Positions 35,363 through 43,501 of a stretch of DNA of 43,622 nucleotides are shown one piece after another. The DNA is from Deltaproteobacteria bacterium (GTDB taxonomy: Bacteria > Myxococcota_A > Polyangia > Polyangiales > Houyiibacteriaceae), in contig SHLP01000017.1 in the NCBI GenBank assembly GCA_004283055.1, positions 1-43,622 of the forward strand, given 5' to 3'. The notes beneath the pieces were generated by a model. The model saw nothing but the letters and a program-made list of their open reading frames with translations. It was not told the DNA's origin and did no database searches. A program made the position numbers and the translations under genes. How positions within the stretch are numbered: the stretch's first letter is position 1; the number at the start of each line of letters is the position of its first letter.

Positions 35363-36868
35363 TCAGCCCGCGAAAACGGCGCGATCCTTGGCCCAAGCGC
35401 GCAGGCTGTCGATCCGCTCGGCCATGGTCACCGAGAGCGGCTTGGTCATCTCGATCTCGTCGGCGATGAGCTCGGTCGTGAGCTTTTCTTGATTCGAGAA
35501 TGCGGTGTACAGGGCGGAGACGACCGCTTGCTCGATTTCGGCACCGCTAAATCCGTCGGTCAGCTCCACGAGCCGCCGTATGTCGAAGTCGACAGGATTC
35601 CGTTTTCGACGCTCGAGGTGGATCTGAAGGATCCGCTTGCGCGCCTCGGCACCGGGAAGGTCGACGAAGAAGATCTCATCGAAACGGCCCTTGCGCATCA
35701 GCTCTGGGGGCAGCTTCGAGATGTCATTGGCGGTCGCGATGACGAAGACACTTTCCTTCTTGTCCTGGAGCCAGGCCAAGAAGGTTCCAAAAATCCTCTG
35801 CGCAGGTCCGCCCTCGGCATCTTCTTGTGAAAGCGCCTTTTCGATTTCGTCGATCCATAGGACGACCGGAGCCATCGCTTCGGCGAGCTTGATCGCGCGT
35901 TTCAAATTCTTTTCGCTCTCGCCAACGTAGCGGTTGTAGAGGTTCGACGGGTCGAGGCGAATCAAGGGAAGCTTCCACTCGGCGGCGACCGCCTTGGCAC
36001 AGAGGCTCTTTCCGCAGCCCTGAACTCCGATCAGCATCAGCCCCTTGGGAGGCGACAGTCCGTATTCCCTGGCGCGCTTTGGGTCTTCGAATGCGGCCTG
36101 GCGCTTACGCAGCCAGTCCTTGAGCTCGCTCAAACCCGCCACGTCGCCCATTTCGTGCTCATGGGGGAAGTATTCGAGTACGCCGGAGCGTTCGATGATC
36201 TGGCGCTTGGCCTGCAGCACTTTGGTAATGTCTTCGCGCCCGAGGACACCGTCCTCGATCACCGCCTGAGTGATGATCTTTTGCACCTCGAAGAACGTGA
36301 GACCGTGCAGGGCCGCGAGCAGCTGTGACACATCCATGCTCGAGAGCTCGACCTTGACGTGAAGCCGCTTGGCCAGATCGCGAAGCACCGCCTGTACGAA
36401 CGAATGGTAGGCCTCGGACGAAGGGGCGTGGAGGCTGAGCGGGGTAAAGAGATGCTCGATGCTCGGGGGCATGTCGATGCCATGGCCTGAAACGATGATC
36501 GCTCCGCGGTGTCCGAAGTACTTCTTGTGGATGTTCTTGATTTGGGCGATGACGGCGGGCTCGTGAAGGTAGGGGCCGAGCCCTTTGAGGTGAAAGATCG
36601 CCTCGAGGTTGGACCGCTCGATGAACGAAAGGGCTTTCTGCGGTGGTCCGCTCTCGGGGGTCTGCCCCGGTTCGGGCAGCTCACGGCGAAGGCCATCGAC
36701 CTGGGTCCAGGAGAAAAGCGGCAAGCTGGTGTTCTCCGCAGCATGCTCCAGCAGCACGTGCACTCGCTCCTCTTCGACGGTCTCGACCAACAACAGTGGG
36801 TGGTGCGCCCGAATCAGGATCTCCAGCTCGCGAAGCTGGTCAGCCGATGGTGGTACCGTGCGAAGCAC
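35363..36868 (-). CDS. AAA family ATPase, Ycf46-like
   Basis: 501-residue cytoplasmic protein. The C-terminal half is an active-looking AAA module: GVQGCGKS (Walker A, 281-288), YVGESEKN (314-321), VVLWIDE (Walker B, 335-341) and [14 protein letters not shown]. The N-terminal 230 residues resemble the degenerate AAA-like part of Ycf46 proteins ([20 protein letters not shown]). Ycf46 proteins have been tied to inorganic-carbon use in cyanobacteria, but function in other bacteria is unknown. Start GTG at 36868 has no ribosome site and lies 6 nt behind a GATCCT -10 box. It shares a symmetric promoter with the small-ORF/DUF1844/Clp operon. Confidence 0.88.
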
Positions 36869-37134: not shown

Positions 37135-37416
37135 ATGAGTGAGGAAGAGGGCTCAGCGCCGACCATCGACTTCAACACCTTCATCTTGTCGTTGAGCACG
37201 TCTGCGCTCATTCATCTCGGCAAGTTGCCTGGTGCGGAGGACGACTCGACGGTGAACCTCGCCCACGCAAAGCAGTCGATCGACTGTATCGCTCTTCTCG
37301 AGGAAAAGACTCGGGGGAACCTCACGGGTGAGGAAGAGCGGCTCATCACCGAGGTGCTCTACGACTTGCGGCTTCAATTCGTGGCGGCAAGGAAAGCCGC
37401 GGACGAGCAGGCTTGA
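37135..37416 (+). CDS. DUF1844 domain protein
   Basis: 93-residue protein of the DUF1844 family, function unknown. The core DFNTFILSLSTSALIHLGKL and ARK-type C-terminal helix with NLAHAKQSIDCIALLEEKT match the family. It is probably helical and cytoplasmic. ATG at 37135 follows GGAG at 8 nt. It lies 5 bp behind the 59-residue gene and overlaps the Clp gene by 4 bp (TTGA), so the three are co-translated in an operon. Confidence 0.9.
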   Translation: MSEEEGSAPTIDFNTFILSLSTSALIHLGKLPGAEDDSTVNLAHAKQSIDCIALLEEKTRGNLTGEEERLITEVLYDLRLQFVAARKAADEQA

Positions 37417-39626
37417 AAAAGCTCACCCTGCGTCTCGATTCCTACAGCGAGGACGCGCGTCGATACGTCGCCGCGGCGCAACGGCTCGCAGACGAGCGCG
37501 GGCACGCAGAAGTTCAGCCCATTCATCTTTGGTACGAGCTGGTGGATACGGCGCCGGCGGTCCAAGCAGCGCTCGACTCGGCGGGGGTCGACGCGACCGA
37601 CGTGCTGGTCGATTCCGAATGGGCGCTGCGAAGGGTCGCGAAGACCGAGCGGAATGGTCTCGCGTACTTGTCGACCCGCTTCTTGGAGCTGCTGTCGAGG
37701 GCCGAGCTCGAGGCAACCCAGCACGCTGGGCTCCCCGTGGGCACCGCCAACTTGGCTCTGGCCTGTGCACAGGAGCCCGAAGGCCTGCTCCGTTCGGTCC
37801 TTCGAACCTCCGGCATGAGCAGCGCGATTCTACGCCAAGCCTTGGCGGACGCCGGCGAAAACGATAGACCCGACGGACGTGCAGAGGCAGAGATGGGTGT
37901 TCTGGACGAGTACGGCCGCGATCTGACGCGCTTGGCAGCTCAAGACGCATTCGATCCGCTCATTGGGCGGGAGGCCGAGCTTCGGCGGATGCTCCAAGTC
38001 CTCGCGCGGCGCAAAGAGAACAACCCGCTACTCGTCGGCGAGGACGGAACCGGCCGAACCGCGCTCGTTCATGGACTCGCATCTCGAATCGCAGCCGATG
38101 AAGTGCCCGAGCTCCTGGCTGACAAGCGCATCATCGCGCTCGATTCCGCGGAGCTGGTTGCGGGGACCAAGCTCCGCGGGCAGCTCGAGGAGCGCATGCG
38201 GTCGATCCTCGATGCTGTCCGCGACTCGGGCGGGCAGGTCATCTTGTTTTTACCCAATCTTGCCGGCTTTCTCCGCGCCAAGGGCGGCGCCGGAGACATG
38301 CTTGCCAGTGCTCTGAGCCGCGGGGAGGTCCGGGCACTCGCACGCTGCACTCCCGATGAGCTTCGAGAGATCAACGACGAAGCGAGCACGCTGTCACGCA
38401 GGCTCGTCCCGATTACAGTCGAGCCGCCAAGCTCGGAACAGGCGGTGGCGATCCTGCAAGGTCTGAAGGCGCGGCTCGAGGCGGCCCACGAGGTCGAGAT
38501 CAGCGAGCCGGCGCTCGACGCCGCGGTTCGGTTCGCGCGCCGCTACGTGGCGGGACGCGAGCTACCGAAAAGCGCCATCGACCTCATCGACGAGAGCGCA
38601 GCGCGCGTTCGCTTGGGCCTCGACGGTGACGAGTCGGACAGCTCGGTGGGCCCCGAAGACGTCGCCGCGGTCGTCTCGCTCTGGACGGGCGTGCCGGCCT
38701 CCAAAATGATGGAAGAAGAAGCACAAAAGCTCCTGCACATGGAGGACCGACTGCGAGAGCGCGTCGTCGGCCAGGACCACGCCGTGAGCGCACTGAGCAA
38801 AGCCGTGCGGCGTGGGCGCGTCGGTCTTCGCGACCCCAAGCGTCCCATCGGCTCGTTTCTCTTTCTCGGCCCGACGGGGGTCGGCAAGACCGAGCTCGCC
38901 AAGACCCTGGCTGCATTCCTGTTCGACGACGAGGCTGCGCTGACGCGGCTCGACATGAGCGAGTTCATGGAAAAGCACATGGTCGCGCGCCTGATCGGGG
39001 CGCCGCCAGGATACGTCGATAGTGAAGCAGGCGGGTTCTTGACCGAAGCCGTCCGCCGCCGCCCGTATTCAGTGGTCTTGTTCGACGAGGTCGAAAAGGC
39101 CCACCCCGACGTGTTCAACATCTTGCTTCAAGTTCTCGAAGACGGTCGACTCAGCGACTCTCGCGGGCGGGTCGCGCATTTCCGAGACACCGTCATCATC
39201 ATGACTTCGAACGTGGGGAGCGAGCTCATTCTCGAGCATCAGGGTTCCGACGAGGCGCTGAACGAGCGAATCGAGGAGCGGCTCCACGACTATTTCCGAC
39301 CGGAGTTCCTCAACCGAGTCGACGAGGTTCTCATCTTCGACCGGCTCGACAAGGAGGAGCTCGCGGCGATCCTCGAAATCCAACTCCGACAGCTCCACAA
39401 GCTCTTGGCTCCCCGGGAGATCGGGCTGACATTGACCGATGCCTCGAAAGAGCGACTGATCGACCTGGGTTACGATCCGGCATTCGGCGCGCGTCCTTTG
39501 AAGCGGGTCCTCGTTCGGGAGCTTCAAGACCCCCTCGCGGAGGCCCTCCTCCGAGGCGAGTTCAGCGACGGAGACACGATCGCGGTCGACTCCGACGGCA
39601 CGTCGTTCTCCTTCCAAAAGGCCTAA
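37413..39626 (+). CDS. ClpA/ClpC-like Hsp100 ATPase with degenerate D1
   Basis: 737-residue double-AAA protein with Clp N domain (about 5-145), D1 (about 180-400) and D2 (about 445-730). In D1, Walker A reads GEDGTGRT (209-216, lysine changed to R215), Walker B reads VILFLPN (276-282) instead of IDE, and the pore loop is KLRG (253-256) not KYRG; R329 and R330 remain. D2 is intact: GPTGVGKT (486-493), VVLFDE (554-559), pore GYVD (533-536), sensor GAR. No middle coiled coil (only about 25 residues between D1 and the D2 linker) and no IGL/VGF ClpP loop are seen. TTG at 37413 overlaps the DUF1844 stop. So it is neither a normal ClpA/C nor a ClpB. Confidence 0.92.
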   Translation: MKKLTLRLDSYSEDARRYVAAAQRLADERGHAEVQPIHLWYELVDTAPAVQAALDSAGVDATDVLVDSEWALRRVAKTERNGLAYLSTRFLELLSRAELEATQHAGLPVGTANLALACAQEPEGLLRSVLRTSGMSSAILRQALADAGENDRPDGRAEAEMGVLDEYGRDLTRLAAQDAFDPLIGREAELRRMLQVLARRKENNPLLVGEDGTGRTALVHGLASRIAADEVPELLADKRIIALDSAELVAGTKLRGQLEERMRSILDAVRDSGGQVILFLPNLAGFLRAKGGAGDMLASALSRGEVRALARCTPDELREINDEASTLSRRLVPITVEPPSSEQAVAILQGLKARLEAAHEVEISEPALDAAVRFARRYVAGRELPKSAIDLIDESAARVRLGLDGDESDSSVGPEDVAAVVSLWTGVPASKMMEEEAQKLLHMEDRLRERVVGQDHAVSALSKAVRRGRVGLRDPKRPIGSFLFLGPTGVGKTELAKTLAAFLFDDEAALTRLDMSEFMEKHMVARLIGAPPGYVDSEAGGFLTEAVRRRPYSVVLFDEVEKAHPDVFNILLQVLEDGRLSDSRGRVAHFRDTVIIMTSNVGSELILEHQGSDEALNERIEERLHDYFRPEFLNRVDEVLIFDRLDKEELAAILEIQLRQLHKLLAPREIGLTLTDASKERLIDLGYDPAFGARPLKRVLVRELQDPLAEALLRGEFSDGDTIAVDSDGTSFSFQKA

Positions 39627-42054: not shown

Positions 42055-42100
42055 CACCCGACTCGATATTGCAGGGCAATTGCCGCAATCCGGAGCGCAG

Positions 42101-43501
42101 GTGCACGTTCATCTGATCGGAATCGCGGGCACGGGGATGAGCGCGCTCGCCGCGCTGCTCGTCGAGGCCGGGCATCGCGTGAGTGGGAGCGACACGGCGT
42201 TCGACCCGCCGGTCGGTCCATACCTCGAGGAGCTCGGCGTTGAATGCTTGGAAGGTTGGCGCAGCGGGAACCTGGACCGCAACCCCGACCTCGTGGTGGT
42301 GGGCAACGTCTGCAGGCGAGACAACCCCGAAGCACAAGAAGCCATGAGTCGCGAGCTTCCAACCCTCTCGATGCCTGCTGCGCTAGCCGCCAAAGTTCTT
42401 TCGCGGCGCAAGTCCTTGGTCGTTGCGGGAACACACGGAAAGACGACCACATCGGCCCTTCTTGCGTACTTGCTGCGGCAGGCAGGAATGGACGCCGGCT
42501 TTTTCATCGGCGGAATTCCCTTGAACTTCGATCGAAGCTCACGGCTCGGGTCCGAAGGGCTTCCGTTCGTCGTCGAGGGCGACGAGTACGACAGTGCTTT
42601 CTTCGAGAAAGAGCCCAAGTTCTGGAGCTATCACCCAAGCGCCGCGATTCTGACCTCGATCGAATACGACCACGTCGACATCTATCCAAACGCAGAGGCG
42701 TACATCTCCGCGTTTCGTCGCTTCGTCGAGCTGATTCCCAATGAGGGCTGGCTTTTCGCATGGGCAGGCGACCCCGTGGTACGTGAGGTTTCATCGAGGG
42801 CGCATTGCAAGGTGCGTTTCTATGCGCTCGAGGGCGACGACTGCGGCGAGGTCCAACCGATGTGGCTCGGCATGCCTGCGCCGGGCGGCGCCATGGATCT
42901 ATTCGGAGGCGGATCGCTGTGCGGGCGAGCTAGCTTGCCGTTGCTCGGCCAGCACAACGCCCGGAACACGGTTGCGGCCCTCGCGATGGCAAGCGAGGCG
43001 GCAGGCGCGCCTCTCGACAGGCTGATTGCTGCTCTGCCCGGCTTTCGCGGAACCAAGCGTCGCCAAGAGCTCGTCGGAGTCAGCAAAGGAGTCGAGGTCT
43101 ACGACGACTTTGCTCACCACCCAAGCGCCGTGAAGGAAACTCTGGCGGGCTTCCGAGAGCGCGCGAAGGGAAGACTGATCGCAGTCTTCGAACCCAGGAG
43201 CGCGACGGCGTCTCGGCGCTTGCATCAGGACGACTATGCCGACGCGTTTGCGCCCGCAGACGTGTGCATCTTGGCGCCCGTTGGACGGACGGGGATTCCC
43301 GCCGAAGAGAAGCTGGACACGAAGAGCATCGCGGAGGCGATCTCGAGCCGCGGTGGTCAGGCGCGAGCCTGCGAGAGCGTCGAAGAAGCGGTCGAGGCGG
43401 CGGCGACCGAAGCGGAGCCCGGCGACACCATCGTCGTCATGTCAAACGGCCGATTCGACGACGCCCCGGACCGAATTTTGCTCGCACTCGTGAAGGACTG
43501 A
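42101..43501 (+). CDS. mpl: UDP-N-acetylmuramate:L-alanyl-gamma-D-glutamyl-meso-DAP ligase Mpl
   Basis: 466-residue cytoplasmic Mur ligase that joins recovered murein tripeptide to UDP-MurNAc in peptidoglycan recycling. VHLIGIAGTGMSALAALL at the start is the UDP-sugar binding domain; GTHGKTTTSA is the ATP loop; EGDEYDSAFFEKEPKFW and YDDFAHHPSAVKETL are Mpl/MurC signatures. EGDEYD and the FHH-type loop favour Mpl over MurC. GTG at 42101 follows GGAG at 5 nt; a TTG at 42080 is less likely. About 250 bp separate it from the previous rightward gene; they hold the 49-residue gene and promoters. Confidence 0.93.
   Translation: MHVHLIGIAGTGMSALAALLVEAGHRVSGSDTAFDPPVGPYLEELGVECLEGWRSGNLDRNPDLVVVGNVCRRDNPEAQEAMSRELPTLSMPAALAAKVLSRRKSLVVAGTHGKTTTSALLAYLLRQAGMDAGFFIGGIPLNFDRSSRLGSEGLPFVVEGDEYDSAFFEKEPKFWSYHPSAAILTSIEYDHVDIYPNAEAYISAFRRFVELIPNEGWLFAWAGDPVVREVSSRAHCKVRFYALEGDDCGEVQPMWLGMPAPGGAMDLFGGGSLCGRASLPLLGQHNARNTVAALAMASEAAGAPLDRLIAALPGFRGTKRRQELVGVSKGVEVYDDFAHHPSAVKETLAGFRERAKGRLIAVFEPRSATASRRLHQDDYADAFAPADVCILAPVGRTGIPAEEKLDTKSIAEAISSRGGQARACESVEEAVEAAATEAEPGDTIVVMSNGRFDDAPDRILLALVKD

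Follow-up and report, generated by a model that had tools for sequence, protein, structure and literature searches.

How work is divided between two stacked AAA+ rings is an open question that has mostly been probed with engineered mutants. Threading by E. coli ClpB is driven mainly by AAA2, in which the pore residue Y653 is essential, the AAA1 pore mutant Y251A has almost wild-type activity once repression by the M domain is relieved, and mutants in the Walker B motif of AAA1 are strongly reduced in disaggregation with some activity left (PMC6593972). D2 is also the principal motor of ClpA (PMC9663308). The M domain acts both as the Hsp70 docking site and as a repressor; in the Hsp70-independent Hsp100 ClpG/ClpK its deletion hardly matters, and mutation of the AAA1 Walker B motif of ClpG strongly reduces disaggregation (PMC8024975). 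Human CLPB/Skd3 disaggregates with just one ring, which is of the D2 type (PMC9934407). In Pex1/6, a two-ring AAA machine that occurs naturally, D1 lacks Walker B and, in Pex1, also the pore aromatic, which shows that such a machine can run on an inactive D1 (PMC4490564).

The Hsp100 gene studied here lies in a window of 43,622 nucleotides, which is the whole stretch of DNA that was analysed (features are listed in Table 1). The comparisons described below suggest that it probably encodes a ClpB paralogue that is functional and belongs to a lineage-restricted Myxococcota clade, a protein in which D2 would provide the power, D1 would be passive and neither DnaK docking nor ClpP would be used.

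Table 1. Coordinates in the window of the studied Hsp100 gene, its domains and motifs, and the adjoining DUF1844 gene.
Feature	Position	Strand	Basis or remark
ClpB-derived Hsp100 with degenerate D1, without M domain	37413..39626	+	TTG start, 737 aa; clade placement
N-terminal (Clp_N-like) domain, aa 1-145	37413..37847	+	weak Pfam Clp_N match at aa 22-63; helical in AF2 model
D1 AAA+ domain, aa 163-403, catalytically degenerate, folded in AF2 model	37899..38621	+	AF2 model and dN/dS
D1 Walker A GEDGTGRT (K212R equivalent)	38037..38060	+	alignment
D1 pore loop AGTKLRG (Y251L equivalent)	38160..38180	+	alignment
D1 Walker B ILFLPNL (D278P and E279N equivalents)	38241..38261	+	alignment
D1 trans-acting arginine pair R329-R330 (R331/R332 equivalents), conserved	38397..38402	+	alignment
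Short linker where the M domain (~120 aa) of long-form relatives and ClpB is missing	38616..38651	+	
D2 AAA+ module, aa 413-737, catalytic residues intact	38649..39623	+	Pfam AAA_2, E 3e-66; ClpB_D2-small, E 3e-24
D2 Walker A GPTGVGKT	38868..38891	+	alignment
D2 pore-1 loop GYVDS, family signature replacing GYVGY/F	39009..39023	+	43/43 members
D2 Walker B VVLFDE	39072..39089	+	alignment
Segment after D2 sensor 1 without ClpP-docking tripeptide, layout as in ClpB	39207..39266	+	
D2 sensor 2 GAR	39486..39494	+	alignment
DUF1844 protein directly upstream of Hsp100	37135..37416	+	Pfam PF08899; conserved adjacency

The protein was aligned to E. coli ClpB, and ClpB numbering is used for the equivalent residues. 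A preliminary description of the window had proposed a dead D1 with arginine for the Walker A lysine, PN for the DE of Walker B and leucine for the pore tyrosine, and all three substitutions were borne out in register with E. coli ClpB (R215 aligned with K212, T216 with T213, L254 with Y251 and P281/N282 with D278/E279). No indel shifted D1, and displacement of its motifs by an indel was thereby ruled out. Given that the substitutions were shared across eight separate genome assemblies they are not sequencing errors, and this sharing together with the low dN/dS given below also ruled out a pseudogene. The loss of the hydrolysis residues supports a D1 ring unable to hydrolyse ATP by the usual chemistry. 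The word dead may nevertheless go too far, since nucleotide binding by D1 is possible: the Walker A lysine is kept in 27 of 35 relatives with an M domain (long forms), and the trans-acting arginines (R329/R330 in the alignment with R331/R332) are present in all eight proteins of the type studied here (short forms). The description of D2 as intact held for the catalytic residues, the equivalents of K611, Y653, D677, E678, N719, R756 and R815 being kept (K492 aligned with K611, Y534 with Y653, D558/E559 with D677/E678, R635 with R756 and R694 with R815), but it had missed that the pore-1 loop is GYVDS and not the canonical GYVG[Y/F].

The M region comprised 46 aa, compared with 163-167 aa in ClpB and 45 aa in E. 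coli ClpA. The coiled-coil M domain is thus absent from this protein as first described, but this is not a trait of the family: among relatives from the same family and order, D1 is dead and the M domain is still present, most members keep the domain, and its loss was a late, genus-level event whereas the decay of D1 is much older. A ClpP insert of the IGL/VGF type was not found after D2 sensor 1, whereas the genome's own ClpA carries VVGFASG and its second ClpA-like protein SIGFKAG. The missing ClpP loop was confirmed in this way but is no special loss, since ClpB, from which the protein is derived, always lacks this loop.

Elsewhere in the 4.3 Mb assembly are genes for a canonical ClpB whose D1 and M domain are intact (C293), for a canonical ClpA (C35), for a further ClpA/C-like protein (C268) and for a ClpX adjoining ClpP (C69); the Hsp100 studied here comes on top of these. 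It scored below the cut-offs of the NCBIfam equivalog models for ClpB (TIGR03346, 827 versus 1232 bits), ClpA (TIGR02639, 607 versus 993 bits) and ClpV/TssH (TIGR03345, 569 versus 885 bits) and of the NCBIfam ClpG and ClpK models (577 versus 1900 bits for both). Its ClpA-like size and layout (737 versus 758 aa) would suit a protein without an M domain from the outset, either of ClpA type or a chimera of ClpA and ClpB. We give this origin almost no credence, and it was ruled out by two results: over N and D1 the protein is 52-56% identical to M-domain-bearing long forms versus only about 39% to the ClpB and ClpA encoded in the same genome, and in a tree built without the M domain it is nested in the ClpB-side clade. 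In these quick trees, which had E. coli ClpA as outgroup and were computed without bootstraps and without ClpC sequences, the family formed one clade (SH-aLRT 100) beside the ClpBs with the short forms as one clade (100) inside it, a placement among ClpB rather than ClpA. A second tree with the motif columns removed and more ClpBs included gave the same topology for the family and the short forms. The stem of the family is long, with 0.51-0.65 substitutions per site.

The family was sampled from genomes of the same genus, the same family and the same order, and residues were checked in 8 short and 35 long members. The short form was found in 8/19 genomes of the genus, with 71-100% identity over N and D1; other genera have the long form, which carries an M domain and is mostly 860-1040 aa in length. 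Two marks define membership and both are present in the studied protein, namely loss of the D1 pore aromatic (43/43 members) and GYxDS in the D2 pore (43/43 members versus 0/19 canonical ClpBs). The aspartate of D1 Walker B was lost in 41/43 members, as was the glutamate, the exceptions being the long members L034 with DE, L025 with PE and L070 with DD. Arginine replaces the Walker A lysine in 8/8 short and 8/35 long forms. The D2 catalytic residues were invariant across the 43 members wherever sequenced. Loss of the whole M domain is restricted to one clade within the genus of the window. Separately, the M domain of the long member L060 (4001-6493) is partly replaced by low-complexity sequence rich in Ala, Ser and Thr, possibly an independent M-domain loss.

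A scan of 189 Myxococcota genomes, in which the residues of matches were checked at the top loci and at 12 others, found recognised members confined to the window's own order, Polyangiales; the restriction is a statement about this sample, and the weakest members, at about 406-415 bits against the profile, score no higher than some canonical ClpBs (up to 417 bits). A family spread throughout the Myxococcota was rejected within the same limits. No paper on a degenerate-D1 ClpB clade was found in the open-access literature, to which the search was confined, the subscription literature lying outside it. The studied protein is a real, conserved ClpB variant that is apparently previously undescribed.

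On the second tree a minimum of one change was required for the pore aromatic, two for Walker B and four for the Walker A lysine. The simplest order would be that the pores changed first, followed by Walker B, then by Walker A in several lines, and finally by the M domain in the lineage studied here. A second ClpB (B2) was observed in another Myxococcota family (L146, L147, L148, L149 and L156) and grouped with the degenerate-D1 clade in the second tree at a support of 93, which was not starred. B2 resembles the family in its D1 pore, where leucine replaces the tyrosine (AGTSLRG), and in a change of Tyr to Ser in D2, but it retains DE or DD in Walker B, the M domain and GYVG in D2 (loop GSARGYVGS). 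In L146 the Walker A lysine is replaced by arginine.

Within the short clade dN/dS was 0.05-0.10 for D1, 0.03-0.07 for D2 and 0.07-0.15 for the N domain as calculated by the Nei-Gojobori method, with some pairs near saturation, and D1 is under purifying selection about as strong as that on D2. In the AF2 model (mean pLDDT 79, pTM only 0.51) the AAA strands and helices of D1 are preserved, and the closest solved structures are ClpC and ClpB. Eight congeners without the Hsp100 have a clean empty site, in which DUF1844 is followed directly by a molybdopterin oxidoreductase gene, the one that lies beside the Hsp100 in the window. Given this clean absence from eight congeners, the Hsp100 gene is dispensable and its task non-essential. 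The empty site is more likely to result from loss than from gain, judging from the loci of other genera, in which DUF1844 also adjoins the long form. The absence, together with the degenerate D1 motifs, would also be expected of a decaying gene heading for loss, but we regard decay as very improbable, as the frames are open in all members, dN/dS is about 0.03-0.10 across D1 and D2, and the D2 motifs are invariant. A protein kept intact in this way by evolution probably works, as an unfolding machine powered by one ring.

The stop codon of DUF1844 overlaps the TTG start of the Hsp100 and the two genes may be co-expressed. For DUF1844 itself nothing relevant was found in the open-access literature, and in two congeners (G005 and G006) it is shortened by an earlier TAG. 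DUF1844 lies directly upstream on the same strand in 8/8 genomes with the short form, and five long-form loci have it no more than about 0.4 kb away, which could point to a remodeller dedicated to one particular client, the DUF1844 protein being either that client or an adaptor. The invariant acidic residue of the D2 pore, which suggests an altered substrate range, is consistent with such a role. We nevertheless consider it quite unlikely, given that many long-form loci are non-adjacent to DUF1844 and that DUF1844 is retained in congeners without the Hsp100; survival of the one gene where the other is absent makes a strict partnership improbable. Beyond DUF1844 and Mpl, no common neighbour of the long-form loci was found with crude ORF calls. 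The Mpl-like ligase of the window (42080-43501, + strand) matched TIGR01081 and TIGR01082 best among NCBIfam models, both slightly below cut-off, and such a ligase is also near the Hsp100 in L058, L059, L065 and L066. On the other side, an AAA ATPase (35363-36868, - strand) has AAA and AAA_lid_3 matches confined to its C-terminal half and stays beside DUF1844 in congeners whether or not they have the Hsp100; we take it to resemble Ycf46-type proteins with a degenerate N-terminal half.

The preliminary reading of a remodeller powered by a single ring and without a known partner remains the best one, as a reading of sequence. After duplication from ClpB, the pore loops would have been altered and ATP hydrolysis by D1 lost through Walker B; later the Walker A lysine would have been lost in several lineages and the M domain in the genus of the window. 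Most likely a two-tier hexamer is still formed, with D1 as a passive ring that would serve as scaffold and entry port and perhaps hold nucleotide, and D2 alone would hydrolyse ATP and pull substrate through its Y534 loop. Without the M domain the protein would be free of M-domain repression and would lack ClpB-style recruitment and activation by DnaK, and without a ClpP loop its substrates would be released and not degraded, a chaperone-type output. A disabled D1 combined with a missing M domain is how a derepressed, D2-powered, DnaK-independent machine would be expected to look, and the near wild-type activity of derepressed Y251A makes the joint loss of D1 grip and M domain mechanically plausible (PMC6593972). 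Given that AAA1 Walker B mutants of ClpB and ClpG are weak, a machine running on D2 alone may lack the strength to disaggregate and may do something milder.

A protein that does not thread might instead enter mixed hexamers with the canonical ClpB as a regulatory subunit and tune it. ClpB is present in the same genome, the two D2s are 62% identical and the interface arginines are retained, but the clade has diverged on its long stem and has preserved every catalytic residue of D2, needlessly so for a mere poison subunit, and we judge this reading unlikely. Returning to the D2-powered paralogue, a more specific scenario, which we put forward only tentatively, is that stepwise silencing of D1 followed by M-domain loss in one genus produced a free-standing remodeller with an acidic D2 pore and clients of its own, possibly with DUF1844 as partner. 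The clade offers a natural graded series with D2 intact throughout, in which Walker B is still intact in L034 and then Walker B, Walker A and finally the M domain are lost in turn. Such a series could separate the roles of hydrolysis by D1, of its grip and of the M domain.

Among the known systems, the studied Hsp100 shares with ClpB/Hsp104 common descent, the N-D1-D2 order, the D2 catalytic set, the lack of a ClpP loop and the trans-arginine pair of D1, but it lacks Walker A and B and the pore aromatic in D1 as well as the M domain, and its D2 pore is GYVDS instead of GYVGY. ClpA is similar in length and also without an M domain, but differs in its active D1 and in its ClpP loop, and by sequence the studied protein belongs with ClpB. 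ClpG depends on both of its AAA rings and on an additional N1 domain, in contrast to the machine proposed here, and human CLPB/Skd3 has no D1 whatsoever and makes use of an ankyrin domain. Pex1/Pex6 is eukaryotic, belongs to a different AAA clade and forms a heterohexamer, so that its likeness is an analogy only, but its D1 also lacks Walker B and the pore aromatic, and in it D2 does the work.
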